DNA of 64,000 bases from Anaerolineaceae bacterium. GTDB lineage: Bacteria > Chloroflexota > Anaerolineae > Anaerolineales > Anaerolineaceae. The stretch covers positions 19,703 through 83,702 of the forward strand of contig WOYY01000061.1 in the NCBI GenBank assembly GCA_011620555.1. The letters run 5' to 3'. Each line of letters starts with the position of its first letter. The stretch's first letter is position 1. The position numbers and the translations under genes were made by a program. The notes beneath the pieces are model-generated. The model saw only the letters and a list, made by a program, of their open reading frames with translations, was not told where the DNA came from and did no database searches. Shown piece by piece: positions 30,244 to 38,244 of this stretch.

Positions 30244-32085
30244 CTACTCCACCGTCACGCTCTTCGCCAAATTCCGCGGCTGGTCCACGTCCAGGCCCCG
30301 CAGCGAGGCGATGTGATAGGCAAAAAGCTGCAGCGGGATGATCGTGATCACCGGGGAGAGCAGCCAGGGGACTTTCGGCACCCAAAGGATGTTCTCGGTC
30401 AGGTCCGGGATGCGGTTGTCGCCGTCGGTCGCCACCGCGATCACAGCCCCGCCCCGCGCCAGCGCCTGCTCGATCTGGCTGATCATCTTGTCATACCAGG
30501 GGTCATCCGGCGCCAGCGCCACCACGGGCATATCCCTGTCAATCAGGGCGATCGGGCCGTGTTTCATCTCGCCCGCCGGATAGCCCTCTGCATGGATATA
30601 CGAAATCTCTTTGAGTTTCAGCGCGCCCTCATAAGCGATGGGATTATTGATCCCCCGCCCCAGGTAGAGCATGTGCTCCATATTCATAAATTTGCGAGCC
30701 AGGGCTTTCACCTGCGGCTCCCGGCTCAAGCATTCGCCCACCAGCGCGGGCACGGCCATCAGGTCCTGCACCAGCCGGAAGCGTTCCCCGGCCTCCAGCG
30801 TGCCGCGCAGGTCGCCCAGGTAAACCGCCAGCAGGTAAAGGTCAATCAGCGGCGCAGTGAAGGCCTTGGTGGAGGCCACGCCGATCTCCGGCCCGGTCTG
30901 CATCGAGATGCAGCCATCCGCAATCCGCATCGCCTGCGAGCCGATCGCATTCACGATCGACCAGAGCCTGGCGCCCTTCTGCCGGCCTTCCTCCATCGCG
31001 GCCAGCGTATCAGCCGTCTCGCCGGACTGGCTGATCGCCAGCACGACGGTATCCTCATCCACCAGCGGGTCCGCATAGCGGAACTCGGAGGCGATGGCCA
31101 CTTCCACCGGGATCCGGGCGATCCGTTCGATCAGGATCTTCCCGACCATCCCGGCGTGGGCCGCGGTGCCGCAGGCGGTGATGATGATGCGCTTGATCTT
31201 TTTGGCTTGTTCGGCATCCAAATTTAGCTCATGCAGGATCACCTTGCCCTCATCAAAATCCACCCGCCCGGCCAGCGTATCGGTCAGCGAGCGCACCTGC
31301 TCGTGGATCTCCTTCTGCATGAAGTGGCGATATTCGCCCTTTTCAGCCGCCACCGGGTCCCAAGAGATGGTCTGCACAGGCAGCTTCACCGGGTTGCCGT
31401 CCAAATCCGTCACCTCAACCGATTCCTTGGAGACGATCGCCATCTGGTGGGATTCGAGGAACATCACCCGGCGGGTGTGCTCAAGGATCGCCGGAAGGTC
31501 CGAGGCGACGAAATTTTCGCCCTCGCCCAGGCCGATCACCACGCCGCCGGCGTTGCCCATCCGGGCCGCCACGATCTTGTCCGGCTCACGAGAGGACATC
31601 ACTACGATCCCGTGCGCGCCCTTCAACCGGCGCAGAGTCTGGCGCACGGCTTCCGCAAGATTGGAACCCGCGGCATAAAATTTCTCAACAAGGTGGACGA
31701 TGGTCTCCGAATCGGTATCAGAATGGAACTCAGTACCCTCAGCCGCCAGCTCCTCCCGCAGGGCTAGATAATTTTCCACGATCCCGTTATGCACCACCAC
31801 AAACTCGCCGGTGCTGCCGATATGGGGATGAGCGTTGCGGGCGTTGGGTTCCCCGTGGGTGGCCCAGCGGGTGTGCCCGATGCCGATCTTGCCGTGCAGC
31901 GGGGTGTCATGCACCAAAGCTTCCAGGTGACTGAGCTTGCCAGCGTCTCGCCGGATCTCGATATGGCTGTTTTCCAAAACAGCCACGCCGGCCGAATCAT
32001 ACCCCCGATACTCGAGGCGTTTCAGTCCTTTTAAAATAATGGGCGTTGAATCCTGCTCGCCGATATAGCCAACAATACCACACAT
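30244..32085 (-). CDS. glmS: Glutamine-fructose-6-phosphate transaminase (isomerizing)
   Basis: MCGIVGYIGEQDSTPIILKGLKRLEYRGYDSAGVAV; SIS domains; C-terminal DVDQPRNLAKSVTVE; internal start adopted (ORF track starts 35 codons too early). Confidence 0.97.
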   Translation of the reverse strand: MCGIVGYIGEQDSTPIILKGLKRLEYRGYDSAGVAVLENSHIEIRRDAGKLSHLEALVHDTPLHGKIGIGHTRWATHGEPNARNAHPHIGSTGEFVVVHNGIVENYLALREELAAEGTEFHSDTDSETIVHLVEKFYAAGSNLAEAVRQTLRRLKGAHGIVVMSSREPDKIVAARMGNAGGVVIGLGEGENFVASDLPAILEHTRRVMFLESHQMAIVSKESVEVTDLDGNPVKLPVQTISWDPVAAEKGEYRHFMQKEIHEQVRSLTDTLAGRVDFDEGKVILHELNLDAEQAKKIKRIIITACGTAAHAGMVGKILIERIARIPVEVAIASEFRYADPLVDEDTVVLAISQSGETADTLAAMEEGRQKGARLWSIVNAIGSQAMRIADGCISMQTGPEIGVASTKAFTAPLIDLYLLAVYLGDLRGTLEAGERFRLVQDLMAVPALVGECLSREPQVKALARKFMNMEHMLYLGRGINNPIAYEGALKLKEISYIHAEGYPAGEMKHGPIALIDRDMPVVALAPDDPWYDKMISQIEQALARGGAVIAVATDGDNRIPDLTENILWVPKVPWLLSPVITIIPLQLFAYHIASLRGLDVDQPRNLAKSVTVE

Positions 32086-32104: not shown

Positions 32105-32321
32105 AGGCGTGCTAGGCGTCCAGAGCAGGGGCCGCCATTCGGGGCCGTCTCTTGGGCGTGGCACTCGGTTGTGTTCGGTATGGGAATCAACTACTCTTGT
32201 AGCGGGAGGCATCCGCCGATCTCTCGATTTTCCGGCTGGTCTTTGCCAGCCGTTAACCCCGGCTTGCACCGGGGAACCTCCTTCCTCGTCACCAGCCCAA
32301 TAAAAGGGCTGGCCTGGCGCT
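32105..32321 (-). ncRNA. glmS ribozyme/riboswitch (GlcN6P-activated self-cleaving) in glmS leader
   Basis: On - strand: A/GCGCCAG..CCAGCCC-uuuuauu-GGGCUGG-UGACGAGG...AUCGAGAGAUCGGCGGAUGCCUCCCG-CUAC-aaga-GUAG: glmS ribozyme core motifs in order, directly upstream of glmS. Confidence 0.93.
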
Positions 32322-32384
32322 TCTTATTCCCATGTCAAGGTGCTTCTCTTACCCTGACCTGATTTGTGAAATCAGATGCCCCCC

Positions 32385-32390
32385 ATTATA
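32385..32390 (-). promoter_or_regulatory. Putative -10 of glmS leader promoter
   Basis: TATAAT on - strand about 65 nt upstream of the predicted ribozyme cleavage site; -35 weak and within the preceding gene's end. Confidence 0.4.
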
Positions 32391-32392
32391 CC

Positions 32393-33778
32393 CTACTCGA
32401 CCGAATCGGATAGGAAATCATGGAATCCCGTCCCGCGTTCAGAATCCGGGAAATAAGCCCGTTGGAGCCGGGCGTAGCCGGCTTCATCATCCACATCCAG
32501 CGCGTTGCGCTCATCCACCCAATCCAGCCAGGCGGCTTGGAACTGGTCAAACACCGCCCGGCCGCCCTGATCGCCCTGGACCGTCCGCAGGGCATCAAAG
32601 GTTTCCCGGTCAAAGAGCACCGGGTTGGCGCGCCGCCCGGCGATCCGCGGCGCGGCGATGGGCAAACGGTTTGTGAAATAGGTCTCCAGCACAGCCCGGA
32701 TCAAAGCCGGCGAGCACTGCGGCTGGTCGCTCATCAGGAACATGAGGGCCTGGCAATCCGGGGGCAGGGCCGCCAGCCCCGCTTTCAGTGAAGTGGACTG
32801 CCCCGCCTGCCAATCGGGATTGGGCACAATTTTCACCGGCATACCGGCCAGGGCCGCGCGGATCGCTTCCGAATTGGCCCCTGTGACCACGATCAGAGGC
32901 GTCAGGCCAGCATCTAAGGCGTTTTGCACCACTTTGGCGATAAAGGTTCGTCCCTGCCAGCCCAGGAGTTGCTTGGGCCGCCCCAGACGCTGGCTACCCC
33001 CCGCCGCCAGGATCACGCCCGCCACCCGGCTGTGGACGCTGGGAATCGTCCCGCTCTTGCCGTCCTGCCGCAACGAACCGATCACAACCTTGTGAAAAAC
33101 ATCTTCCACCGCCCCAGCGATCCAGTTAGCCTGCGAAAGCAGTCCAGGTGTCTCAGCCTGGTTGAGGAACAGGACTCGTTCCGCGGCGGACGGCAGCCCT
33201 TTGAGTCCGCCCTTCGGATCCCGCAGGACCTTCGCCAAACCCGCCGATGTGATAGCCTCACCGGGTTTCAGATCACTGAGCGCGGCAAAGCGTTCCGGCC
33301 GGTGAACGGTCGCCGCCTCCAGCGGCTGTCCCAAGACGCTCAGTCCGGCCACCACGATCACCTTCATCGCCCACGCCGGGACAGCGGGTTCATGCTCGGC
33401 CGGCGCTTTTAAGCTTTTCTGCCGGGCGCCATCCGCCTCGACCAGCAAAGTGAAGTTTCTCTGCTCGGCATACTGCCGGAGCGCTTCAAGCTGCTGGGGC
33501 GTCAGCGCGGTCAGGCGCTCATCTCGTCCAGTTGGGCCGGTAATCAACAAGGTGTCAAATGGTTCGGGAATCTTCTCAATCAAATCCTCACCGGGGACAA
33601 GGATCAGGTGCCTCTCAGCCAGAGATGCCTGCCACGCCCCCAGATGGGTGGCCGTCGTCAGCAGGACCGGCCCCGGACCCGCCTTCGCCAGGGTGAACAT
33701 CAGGCCGGTTTTCCCCCCCGCACCGGTCAGGGCCACGGTCTCTCCCGGGTGGATCGAGAAGGCGTGCAGAAGGTCCAA
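32393..33778 (-). CDS. YqeC (selenium-cofactor/SDMH accessory) fused to MocA-like molybdenum cofactor cytidylyltransferase
   Basis: N-term VALTGAGGKTGLMFTLA..LLTTATHLG.., VEADGARQKSLKAPAEHEP (YqeC); C-term VAGVILAAGGSQRLGRPKQLLGWQG.., MFLMSDQPQCSPALI (MocA). Confidence 0.87.
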   Translation of the reverse strand: MDLLHAFSIHPGETVALTGAGGKTGLMFTLAKAGPGPVLLTTATHLGAWQASLAERHLILVPGEDLIEKIPEPFDTLLITGPTGRDERLTALTPQQLEALRQYAEQRNFTLLVEADGARQKSLKAPAEHEPAVPAWAMKVIVVAGLSVLGQPLEAATVHRPERFAALSDLKPGEAITSAGLAKVLRDPKGGLKGLPSAAERVLFLNQAETPGLLSQANWIAGAVEDVFHKVVIGSLRQDGKSGTIPSVHSRVAGVILAAGGSQRLGRPKQLLGWQGRTFIAKVVQNALDAGLTPLIVVTGANSEAIRAALAGMPVKIVPNPDWQAGQSTSLKAGLAALPPDCQALMFLMSDQPQCSPALIRAVLETYFTNRLPIAAPRIAGRRANPVLFDRETFDALRTVQGDQGGRAVFDQFQAAWLDWVDERNALDVDDEAGYARLQRAYFPDSERGTGFHDFLSDSVE

Positions 33779-33786
33779 GGCCGGGG

Positions 33787-34599
33787 TCAGCCTTCCCAGA
33801 GCTGGCGGCGGATTTCAGGTTGGGTCAGCAGCGCTTCCAACACACCGCCGCCGATGGCCAGCGATTTCTCCGAAGCGTACCAGCAGCGGAAAACTTCCGG
33901 CCGAGGGTCCACATCCCCCACCTTCATCCCCTCCCGCACCGGCACGCCGTTATGGATCAGACCGCGCACCACGCCGTCAAAAGGCGCGACACAGGCTTCC
34001 CCAGCCACCAGCAGCAGCGGTTCGCCCTCTTTGACAGAATGGCCAATCGGCACCAGCGTTTCCACAATGCCCGTGGCCGGCGCATGCAGGATGCGTTCGG
34101 CCGCGAAAGCCTGCACCTTGCCGGGGATACCGGTATCCGGCTCCGGGCTGCCCTCCCAGTAGACCCGCCCCAAAAAGTGCCCGCGATTGGTCTCCACCGC
34201 AGCGTGGCAGTTTTCGTCCACAGTAAAGCCCGGCCCCAGTCCGATCACCAGGTCGGCAATTGTGAGGTCCAGCTCGGTTTCCTTTTTGCGCATCCGGGCA
34301 TCCACCACCGCGACAGGGCGGAAATCCGTCAGCAGGTGCAGGTCCGGGTCAACGATCACCGGCACTTCACCCTTCGCCCAACAGCTTTCCATCTGGTCCG
34401 GGGCATCGATCAACCTGCCAGTGACTGCTTCAATCGTGGTTTCGCCGTCATAGACAGCCTGAGCAAAGGCCACGGACCGCCGCACGGCCAGGGGCTGGCT
34501 CCGTTCCACAACGACCACGTGAATGCCGGACCAATGCAATCGCAGCGCGACCCCACTGGCCAGGTCACCCCCGCCCCAGATCAGCACAAAGGGGATCAT
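33787..34599 (-). CDS. yqeB: YqeB/EF2563-family selenium-dependent molybdenum hydroxylase system protein
   Basis: VLIWGGGDLASGVALRLHWSGIHVVVVERSQPLAVRRSVAFAQAVYDG; DLVIGLGPGFTVDENCHAAVETNRGHFLGRV. Confidence 0.88.
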   Translation of the reverse strand: MIPFVLIWGGGDLASGVALRLHWSGIHVVVVERSQPLAVRRSVAFAQAVYDGETTIEAVTGRLIDAPDQMESCWAKGEVPVIVDPDLHLLTDFRPVAVVDARMRKKETELDLTIADLVIGLGPGFTVDENCHAAVETNRGHFLGRVYWEGSPEPDTGIPGKVQAFAAERILHAPATGIVETLVPIGHSVKEGEPLLLVAGEACVAPFDGVVRGLIHNGVPVREGMKVGDVDPRPEVFRCWYASEKSLAIGGGVLEALLTQPEIRRQLWEG

Positions 34600-36806
34600 T
34601 TGATCTTTCCCAGGCCCCGCAGGACGCGTTCCGGTGTCAGGGGGAATTCATGGAACCAGACCCCGGTCGCGTCGTGCATCGCCGCCATGATCGCCGGCGC
34701 CAGCGGGAGATAGGGCATTTCCGCCATGCCCCGCGCGCCGTAAGGGCCATTCGGTTCGGCAAATTCAAGGATGACGGATTCCACCTCGTCCGGGATATCC
34801 AGGACTGTTGGAATCAGGTAATTGGAGAGCATATTCGTCAGCACTTTGCCATCCTTCTGAATGAAGTTCTCCAAAATGGTGTACCCGGCCGCCTGGATCA
34901 AAGCGCCTTCAATCTGCCCTTCAACCTGCATCGGGTTGATCGCCCTGCCGACATCGTCCGCACAGAGGATTTTTAGCAGGTGAATTTCACCGGTTTCCGT
35001 ATCCACTTCCAATTCAACGGTTTCCGCAACATAGCCATAAGAAACGTTGGGATAAGACTCGCCGGTCTCCTGATCATAGGGCTGGGTCGGCGGAGCAAGG
35101 TATTTGTATTCAACCGTCAGCGGCCTATCATCCGTCTCCTGCCACTTCTTAAGCGCCAATTTGGCCGCGCCCAGAACGGCATTCCCACCCATAAAGGTCA
35201 TCCGGGAGGCGGAGGAACTTCCGGCGTTGCCGGAGAAACCGGTATCCGATCCAATCATCTCCACCTTCTCAACCGGGATATTCAATTCTTCGGCGACGAT
35301 CTGGCGTAAAACCGTGTGAGCGCCCTGCCCAACATCCGCGCCGGCGTGGTGCAGGACAGCTTTTTCAATTTCCTGGTCCCCATACAAGTCAAGGATCGCC
35401 GTGCTGTTTTCGGCATAGCCAAACGAGAAACCGACATTCTTATAACCGCAGGCCACGCCGCGCCCGCGCTTGACAACGCCCTCCCCGGGCATCAGCGCCG
35501 GTCGCTGCCAGCCGTCCTCGGTCTTCTGCCAGCCCGATCGCTCCGCACAGGACGCCATGACGGACTTGATCGTCACACCCTTGGGTGGTTTAGTATTGAC
35601 CGAGAGAATCGAGTCGTCATCAATCAGGTTCCGCATCCGCAGTTCCACCGGGTCCATCCCAAGCGCTTCCGCCAGATGGTTCATCTGCATTTCCGCTTCA
35701 AAAGCGCCCTGCGGCCCGCCGAAGCCCCGGAAAGCGCCGCCGGGAATGTTGTTGGTATAAACCGATCGAGAATCAACGTACACGTTGGGGATTTCATAGG
35801 GGCCGGAGCACATCAGGGTCGCGTTGCCCTGAACCTTGTTGGTCGTATACATATAGGCGCCGCCATCCGCCAAAATATCAACTTTGGCCGCGAGGACCTT
35901 GCCGTCTTTGGTCGCGCCCCACTTCGCCCACAGTTTATAAGCATGGCGTTTGTGATGCCCGATAATCGATTCTTCCCGCGTCCAAATGATCTTGACCGGG
36001 CGGTCAATGCCGCGTTCATGCAGGCGCATGGTTGCCAGGGCCAGCACGATCTGCACAGACATATCCTCCCGCCCGCCAAAGGCGCCGCCGATCGCCGGAT
36101 AGATCACCCGGATCTTTTCCTCAGGCAGCCCGAGGGAATGAGCGATCTGTTCCCGATCCTCATGGGCCCATTGACCTGCGACGACCACCGTGATCCGCCC
36201 TTCCTCATCGTAATAGGAAATCCCGGCTTCCGGCTGCAGATAGGCATGCTCCTGCATCGGCGTGCGATATTCGCCTTCCACGATCACATCACACTTTTTG
36301 AAGGCTTCTTCCACGTCACCATGCCGGATCTTATAGTGCAGCATCAGGTTGGTTTCCCTATCAGGATGCAGCAGGGTCTGGTCCTTCAGGGCATTTTCCA
36401 TCTCTGTCACCAGGGGGAGGTCCTCATAATTCACTTTGATTTTCTTCCGGGCGGCATCCGCAATCTCATTGCTCTCAGCCACCACTAATGCCACCTGGTC
36501 GCCCACAAAGCGCACCCGGTCCGCATAGGGTTTGGAAGAACCCGGCCCGCAGAGGACGGGCTGATCCGCAATGCCCAGCCCATACTCATTCACCGGCACA
36601 TCCCTGGCGGTTAGGACAGCGATCACACCCGCCATGGCCTCAGCCTCGGAAGTGTCAATGGCCTTCACGATCGCGTGAGGCCGGTCGGAAAAGAGGACCT
36701 TCATGTAAAGCTGGTTGGGCCTATTGAAATCGCCGGGATAGAGCGCCGCTCCGGTGGCTTTGTCTTTTACGTCAAAACGTGCAATGGATTTTCCAAGGCT
36801 TGCCAT
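34596..36806 (-). CDS. Xanthine dehydrogenase-family molybdopterin-binding (large) subunit
   Basis: MASLGKSIARFDVKDKATGAALYPGD..., GGAFGGREDMSVQ, GGAFRGFGGPQ, GADVGQGAHTVLRQI, GPYGARGMAEMP; true start 36806. Confidence 0.93.
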   Translation of the reverse strand: MASLGKSIARFDVKDKATGAALYPGDFNRPNQLYMKVLFSDRPHAIVKAIDTSEAEAMAGVIAVLTARDVPVNEYGLGIADQPVLCGPGSSKPYADRVRFVGDQVALVVAESNEIADAARKKIKVNYEDLPLVTEMENALKDQTLLHPDRETNLMLHYKIRHGDVEEAFKKCDVIVEGEYRTPMQEHAYLQPEAGISYYDEEGRITVVVAGQWAHEDREQIAHSLGLPEEKIRVIYPAIGGAFGGREDMSVQIVLALATMRLHERGIDRPVKIIWTREESIIGHHKRHAYKLWAKWGATKDGKVLAAKVDILADGGAYMYTTNKVQGNATLMCSGPYEIPNVYVDSRSVYTNNIPGGAFRGFGGPQGAFEAEMQMNHLAEALGMDPVELRMRNLIDDDSILSVNTKPPKGVTIKSVMASCAERSGWQKTEDGWQRPALMPGEGVVKRGRGVACGYKNVGFSFGYAENSTAILDLYGDQEIEKAVLHHAGADVGQGAHTVLRQIVAEELNIPVEKVEMIGSDTGFSGNAGSSSASRMTFMGGNAVLGAAKLALKKWQETDDRPLTVEYKYLAPPTQPYDQETGESYPNVSYGYVAETVELEVDTETGEIHLLKILCADDVGRAINPMQVEGQIEGALIQAAGYTILENFIQKDGKVLTNMLSNYLIPTVLDIPDEVESVILEFAEPNGPYGARGMAEMPYLPLAPAIMAAMHDATGVWFHEFPLTPERVLRGLGKIK

Positions 36807-36831
36807 ATTCTGCTCCTTCGCCTCTGCTCGC

Positions 36832-38244
36832 CTAAACCTGCTTCGATTGGGCCTGGCTTGCAACCTCAATCGCTTCAATGATCTTGTAATAGCCGGTGCA
36901 CCGGCAAAGGTTACCGGTGATCGCCTGCCGGATCTCCGCCTGGGAGGGAGTCTGCCGCTCTTCCAGCAGCTTGGTTGCCGACATGATGAAGCCGGGGGTG
37001 CAGAAGCCGCATTGGATCGCGCCCCGCTCCACGAAGGCATCCTGCACGGGGCTGAGTTCATCGCCGACCTGCAGGCCCTCAATTGTCACAATTTCAGCGC
37101 CATGCGCCCTTGCCGCAGGCACCAGGCAGCTCATCACCGCCCGGCCATCCAGGAAAACGGTGCAGGCGCCGCATTCCCCTTCGGCGCAGCCTTCCTTGGT
37201 GCCCGTCAAGCCGGCCTCTTCCCGAATCAGGTTGAGCAGGGTCTTTTCAAAGCCGGTCGTGAAGTGATATTCCCTGCCGTTGATCCAGGTATGAATCGCC
37301 TGGCCGTCCCAGGGCACCATCGGCGGCCGGGTTTCCATCCCATCCCCCATCAGGAGGATCGCCTCAGCAGGCACCAGTTCCTTATCCACACCGTTCATAA
37401 TTGCCGTGAGCGCGCGTTTGGCGATCACACCGATCATATAATTCCGATAGTCGGCCGAACCGCGGATATCGGAGATCGGCCTGGCCGCCTGAGCGGTCAG
37501 TTCGCCGGCTTCCGCGATCACGCTTTCGCTCAAAGACTTCCCCTTCAGGAAAGTTTCTGCCCCTTCCGCGTGGATGATCGTCGGGGCGGCCGCCCCGAGC
37601 GTGATCCTGGCTTGCGAGATCAGATCGCCAGTCCTTTCCAGGATAACGGAAATATTGATGACCGAGATCGCCTGAGCCTTCCGCAAAGCGGTCTTGATGA
37701 AGAACGAAGGTTGGATTTCAGTCAACCCTTTGAAGGCAATGTCCGTGATGATCTCATCCGGAGCCATCACGGTCCGGCGGACGCCGGTGTAGAATTCCGA
37801 AAGCGGGACAACCCGTTCACCTTTGGTGGAGCGCAGGGTCAATTTGGCGTTCAGGGCCATCAAGGGACTGATGGTATCGTTGGCAGGGGAAGCCGTCGCC
37901 AGGTTGCCCGCCACCGTCCCGCGGTTGCGGATTTGGGGCGAACCCACTTCCCAACAGGCCTGCAGCAGGGCAAAGGCCTTCTCCCGGATCAGGGGGGATC
38001 CCACCACATGGTTATGTGTCACCGTTGGGCCAAGGTGGATCATGCCATCCGGGTCCTCCGTGATGCCATCCAGACCGGGGATCTTGGTGATGTCGATGAT
38101 CGTCTGGAGGTTTGGCCGGAGGCCGCGTTCGATCTCGAGGATCAAGTCCGTGCCGCCGGCGACGATCCGGGCAGTTTCGCCGGATTGCGAAAGCGCCTCA
38201 ACTGCCTCGTCCAAAGATTCTGCCATAATATAGTTTTGCCACAT
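36832..38244 (-). CDS. FAD-binding (CoxM-type) subunit fused to C-terminal 2Fe-2S (CoxS-type) domain of molybdenum hydroxylase
   Basis: N-term IVAGGTDLILEIERG..RNRGTVAGNLATASPANDT; C-term CAEGECGACTVFLDGRAVMSC..CGFCTPGFIM..CRCTGYYKI; true start 38244. Confidence 0.92.
   Translation of the reverse strand: MWQNYIMAESLDEAVEALSQSGETARIVAGGTDLILEIERGLRPNLQTIIDITKIPGLDGITEDPDGMIHLGPTVTHNHVVGSPLIREKAFALLQACWEVGSPQIRNRGTVAGNLATASPANDTISPLMALNAKLTLRSTKGERVVPLSEFYTGVRRTVMAPDEIITDIAFKGLTEIQPSFFIKTALRKAQAISVINISVILERTGDLISQARITLGAAAPTIIHAEGAETFLKGKSLSESVIAEAGELTAQAARPISDIRGSADYRNYMIGVIAKRALTAIMNGVDKELVPAEAILLMGDGMETRPPMVPWDGQAIHTWINGREYHFTTGFEKTLLNLIREEAGLTGTKEGCAEGECGACTVFLDGRAVMSCLVPAARAHGAEIVTIEGLQVGDELSPVQDAFVERGAIQCGFCTPGFIMSATKLLEERQTPSQAEIRQAITGNLCRCTGYYKIIEAIEVASQAQSKQV

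Follow-up and report, generated by a model that had tools for sequence, protein, structure and literature searches.

The closest described relatives of the element studied here are the canonical glmS ribozymes (RF00234; B. subtilis, B. anthracis and T. tengcongensis), with which it shares the cleavage context, helices P1 and P2, the P2.1/P2.2 double pseudoknot, the catalytic guanine and a position in the glmS leader. Known glmS ribozymes are stabilised by P3.1, P4 and P4.1 and have a contact between L4 and P1, and in B. subtilis the cleaved glmS mRNA is degraded by RNase J. Variants from Deinococcus-Thermus with additional core stems and altered supporting substructures were reportedly described in 2011 by McCown, Roth and Breaker, who are said to have found 463 glmS ribozymes, all but two of them in glmS mRNAs. 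These variants, which may or may not share an insertion at J2/2.1, form the main limit on the novelty of the insertion reported below. No Deinococcota glmS was found among the plasmid matches listed. To our knowledge, glmS-type ribozymes are hardly known before glutamine synthetase genes, and a literature search returned no relevant paper on a glmS ribozyme with glnA, glutamine synthetase or Chloroflexi. The glnA RNA motif, or glutamine riboswitch (RF01739), likewise precedes glnA, but is unrelated.

The window, a 64,000-nucleotide stretch from an Anaerolineaceae bacterium whose numbering is used throughout, carries a glmS leader on its (-) strand, to which all parts of the element described below belong. 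On the strength of its homology and position, the preservation of the core and pseudoknot strands, the covariation of both hairpins and a layout kept across a clade, we judge it highly probable (roughly 0.88) that this leader contains a glmS ribozyme controlling glmS through self-cleavage assisted by glucosamine-6-phosphate (GlcN6P), and that it represents a Chloroflexota sub-family with two additional helices in J2/2.1, of which a divergent type II copy stands at glnA.

Identification and architecture of the ribozyme element

The RF00234 match, obtained with Infernal, spans 32332-32223 (-) with 40.3 bits (E 2.3e-7), just 3 bits above the gathering cut-off of 37, and the core is wrongly threaded by the model. 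The Rfam alignment puts the model P3 and P4 onto two inserted hairpins and passes over the model P2 core; the true core strand, AUCGAGAGAUCGGCGGAUGCCUCC (32228-32205), comes after these hairpins. Manual parsing recovers both pseudoknots along with P1 and P2, the catalytic guanine (32284) and the A/GCGCC cleavage context are likewise retained, and the glmS ribozyme identity proposed in the initial annotation was borne out by the score and by the presence of every named motif at its (-) strand position. The element lies 235 nt upstream of glmS (30244-32085 (-); TIGR01135, 795.8 bits, above cut-off), which starts at ATG 32085, the open reading frame from TTG 32190 being over-extended with a spurious start. 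The fold of the leader is more stable than all 200 of 200 dinucleotide shuffles (z -3.6).

The predicted cleavage site A-1/G1 (32321/32320) was located by its AGCGCC context and the RF00234 alignment. It is followed by the P2.2 5' strand CGCC (32316-32319), which pairs with GGCG (32214-32217) in the scheme of PMC7125110, and by the canonical bulge A6 (32315, numbered as in PMC7125110). The P1 hairpin GCCAGCCC/GGGCUGGU (32291-32313, with 32313-32306 paired to 32298-32291) is supported by motif, RF00234 and folding, and leads into ACGAGG (32284-32289), which provides the P2.1 5' strand CGA (32286-32288) and G32284. The general base of described ribozymes, G40 in T. tengcongensis and G42 in B. 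subtilis, is the last G of GACGAGG (PMC11602151), and G32284 is by sequence the homologue of this catalytic guanine. The P2 strands GGAGG (32277-32281) and CCUCC (32205-32209) are 100% paired in 25 relatives, with three of the five pairs covarying. The P2.1 3' strand UCG (32225-32227), which belongs to the cofactor pocket (PMC7125110), is invariant in the same 25 sequences.

The consensus short J2/2.1 is replaced in the window copy by an insertion of ∼45 nt consisting of two hairpins. Hairpin A, CCCCGGU-GCAA-GCCGGGG (32257-32274), is closed by a GNRA loop and separated by a conserved YUAA linker (32253-32256) from hairpin B, CGGCUGG-CAAAGA-CCAGCCG (32233-32252). The initial annotation had described a two-hairpin insertion adjoining P2 and P2.1, and this stands: neither the Rfam consensus nor the canonical members have such an insertion. 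Hairpin A has 7 bp and a GCAA loop, where that annotation gave 6 bp. As a short J2/2.1 is a consensus feature and not a catalytic requirement, the insertion is treated as sub-family variation. Downstream of P2, a short P3-like hairpin, CUAC-AAGA-GUAG (32191-32202), is present without the canonical P3.1, P4 and P4.1 and their A-rich internal loop. An additional helix, P0, is formed between AUGGGAAU (32326-32333), just upstream of the cleavage site, and AUUCCCAU (32180-32187), as supported by folding and a duplex permutation test. Compared with canonical RF00234 members, the window copy thus gains two J2/2.1 helices and P0 and lacks P3.1/P4/P4.1; the RF00234 consensus structure includes neither the insertion nor P0. 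The missing P4, the P0 helix and the glnA-associated paralogue lay beyond the reach of the initial annotation.

Distribution among Chloroflexota and division into two types

The layout TT-[hairpin A, often GNRA-capped]-YUAA-[hairpin B]-GAAA-UCG is common to ∼190 relatives, mostly from Anaerolineae and other Chloroflexota families, and is thus the normal arrangement in a Chloroflexota clade rather than the peculiar single case that the initial annotation had envisaged. It was found in the Anaerolineae families read and in families f24, f25, f35 and f61 outside the class, whereas f22, f27, f48, f56 and other Chloroflexota families have an ordinary short J2/2.1. RF00234 was searched in a sample of 400 Chloroflexota genomes, from which loci were retrieved for reading. 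A pattern scan of 85,462 species genomes returned at least 119 stretches, nearly all from Chloroflexota among the matches listed, and a fuller pattern matched in 267 of 400 genomes of the window's order. ACGAGG, UCG and GCGGAWGCC are conserved among the relatives, although conservation in the pattern scans is partly by design, since ACGAGG and AAAAUCG were required by them; the Rfam-based matches, which are free of this bias, agree with the scans. Four loci (L088, L090, L127 and, from Clostridia, L109) have one hairpin at the J2/2.1 site followed by GAAAAUCG, and two from other Chloroflexota families (L024, L290) carry an insertion of another kind, within the loop that connects the P2.1 strand to the P2.2 strand.

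The 195 well-parsed elements comprise 112 of type I, in which P1 begins at nt 8, and 83 of type II, in which it begins at nt 9; these counts refer to retrieved, mutually related elements and not to independent events. Type I elements lie directly before glmS in 104 of 112 cases. Because the two types differ by one nucleotide, a covariance model built from a mixed alignment of both obtained the wrong P1, and this model was left unused.

Covariation of the inserted hairpins

Across a diverse set of 25 type I sequences, 96.1% of cells were paired, compared with 73.8% after shuffling and 33-51% when the sequences were slid, and the covariation score was 0.668 against 0.223. Both hairpins show changes on both sides at seven of seven pairs, with 100% of cells paired in hairpin A and 87% in hairpin B. 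The check for covariation among Chloroflexota relatives that had been proposed for these hairpins therefore came out positive for both, beyond chance. RNAalifold recovered P2, hairpin A and hairpin B unaided, and hairpin A of type II elements is 99.5% paired with six of seven pairs covarying. The loop of hairpin A has four bases in 175 of 190 parsed elements and is of the GNRA type in 133 of the 185 that have A at -1, and an added tertiary contact made by this hairpin is possible. The strand joining P2 and P2.1, which borders the cofactor pocket, tolerates two helices, and their presence can accompany loss of a supporting domain.

The periphery and alternative readings of the insertion

P4 is absent from the window copy and from other Anaerolineaceae glmS leaders; in four of the relatives (L041, L042, L172 and L174) the gap between P2 and the glmS start is 50-56 nt and thus too short for P4. 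This absence, together with the way cmscan fits the model's P3 and P4 to the two inserted hairpins, is what would be expected if the canonical P3/P4 domain had been relocated into J2/2.1 by permutation. Hairpins A and B occur, however, together with a canonical downstream P3/P3.1/P4, including its A-rich internal loop, in L048, L049, L053 and in L002, the glnA-associated paralogue from the window's own genome. As these relatives carry both sets of hairpins, the arrangement is an insertion; the permutation was rejected and we assign it almost no weight. The missing P4 might also indicate a decayed glmS ribozyme that has lost cleavage and is merely a structured leader. We find this very unlikely, since the relatives examined retain A-1/G1 and the catalytic guanine as well as the core strands, and since PMC11602151 refers to earlier studies in which cleavage did not require P4.

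The two hairpins could instead constitute a second sensing or protein-binding module providing an extra input, for which the single-stranded YUAA and GAAA, both conserved, and the GNRA loops would offer a potential binding site. The conserved strands are, however, equally explained by junction packing on the core, and the loop of hairpin B ranges from 3 to 75 nt in relatives with variable sequence, which makes a second module improbable. The second input raised in the initial annotation is accordingly unsupported, hairpin B being free to vary in both length and sequence. In type I leaders P0 joins the segment immediately 5' of the cleavage site to bases after P3, and duplexes between a leader's own two strands are on average more stable than swapped duplexes, with 0 of 5000 permutations reaching so low a value; for type II elements the same duplex permutation test was not significant (268 of 5000 as low).

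A second element upstream of glnA

A further RF00234 match in the window's genome (L002, 39.6 bits) lies 170 nt upstream of glnA, the identity of which was confirmed by TIGR00653 (534.8 bits). This element, at 1501-1719 of its own stretch (G000:C39:7059-7277) on the (-) strand, has AGCGGC, A at nt 26 and AUCAGCGG, retains the canonical P3.1/P4 periphery, and matches RF00234 as the sole family at gathering threshold. No third element was found in the window's genome, which has exactly two, at glmS and glnA.

Type II elements recur across Anaerolineales and stand directly before glnA in 61 of 83 cases, and in a further 6 of 83 before an operon in which glnA is a later gene. Operons of the latter kind in family f2 encode, in sequence, an Ada-like AraC/methyltransferase, an EamA transporter and glnA, and the order type II element, Ada-like gene, EamA (YedA-like) transporter, glnA was seen at L096, L115, L124, L150, L170 and L184. 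Four type II elements (L078, L093, L123 and L164) precede open reading frames that look glutamate-synthase-like from shared sequence motifs and, in L078 only, a weak Pfam match; one type I element (L101) precedes a GltB-like protein. Elements before glutamate-synthase-like frames suggest a wider nitrogen regulon. Two genomes have extra type II copies (L254, L255), with no downstream glnA match within the stretch retrieved.

Nucleotides 4-6 of type II elements are mostly GCU, ACU or UAU and are accompanied by A53. This pattern fits a shifted P2.2 with pairs C5-G54 and U6-A53, in which nt 4 would be bulged in the GCU and ACU forms. Migration of the P2.2 bulge has been inferred from mutants and mutant libraries (PMC7125110), and the natural register shifts seen here agree with it. 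Nucleotide 26, the position of the first G in GACGAGG, is G in 112 of 112 type I elements compared with 43 of 83 of type II, and the 40 of 83 without G raised the possibility that type II elements are catalytically dead. This was rejected, as PMC11602151 places the general base at the final G of that motif, which is kept; nt 26 instead belongs to a base triple, and the type II catalytic core is intact. Pyrimidines at nt 26 of type II elements occur with G8 in 22 of 27 cases and purines with A8 in 49 of 56, a correlation that makes an 8-26 pair likely in part of type II.

Proposed mechanism

By homology with the canonical ribozymes, GlcN6P would bind a preformed pocket and assist cleavage at A-1/G1, after which the mRNA with its 5'-OH would be degraded by an RNase J; an RNase J homologue is present here. 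Hairpin A and P0 may take over core stabilisation from the P3.1/P4 domain, which Anaerolineaceae glmS leaders have lost, and the GNRA-looped hairpin A may substitute for the canonical L4-P1 contact. At type II elements before glnA, GlcN6P would presumably also curb the supply of glutamine, from which GlmS draws its amino group. We hold it probable, though with less assurance than the reading of the glmS leader, that in Anaerolineales a divergent ribozyme with a shifted P2.2 and P1 displaced by 1 nt puts glnA, and sometimes glutamate-synthase-like genes, under GlcN6P feedback. The glnA association is more surprising than the core insertion: it would broaden the regulon of a ribozyme thought almost confined to glmS and offers a connection from GlcN6P to nitrogen assimilation that can be tested. 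If true, a metabolite-driven ribozyme would couple cell-wall sugar and nitrogen assimilation. As two-hairpin members are wrongly threaded by it, the Rfam model needs amending.

Sequence neighbouring the glmS leader

A perfect TATAAT is located upstream of the leader at 32385-32390 (-); a promoter scan found no sigma-70-type pair. A sub-threshold match to the CPEB3 ribozyme at 32825-32891 (-), within an open reading frame, scored 19.3 bits against a cut-off of 35 and is probably due to chance. The genes upstream of glmS (32393-37082 (-)) resemble what we take to be a selenium-dependent molybdenum hydroxylase cluster.
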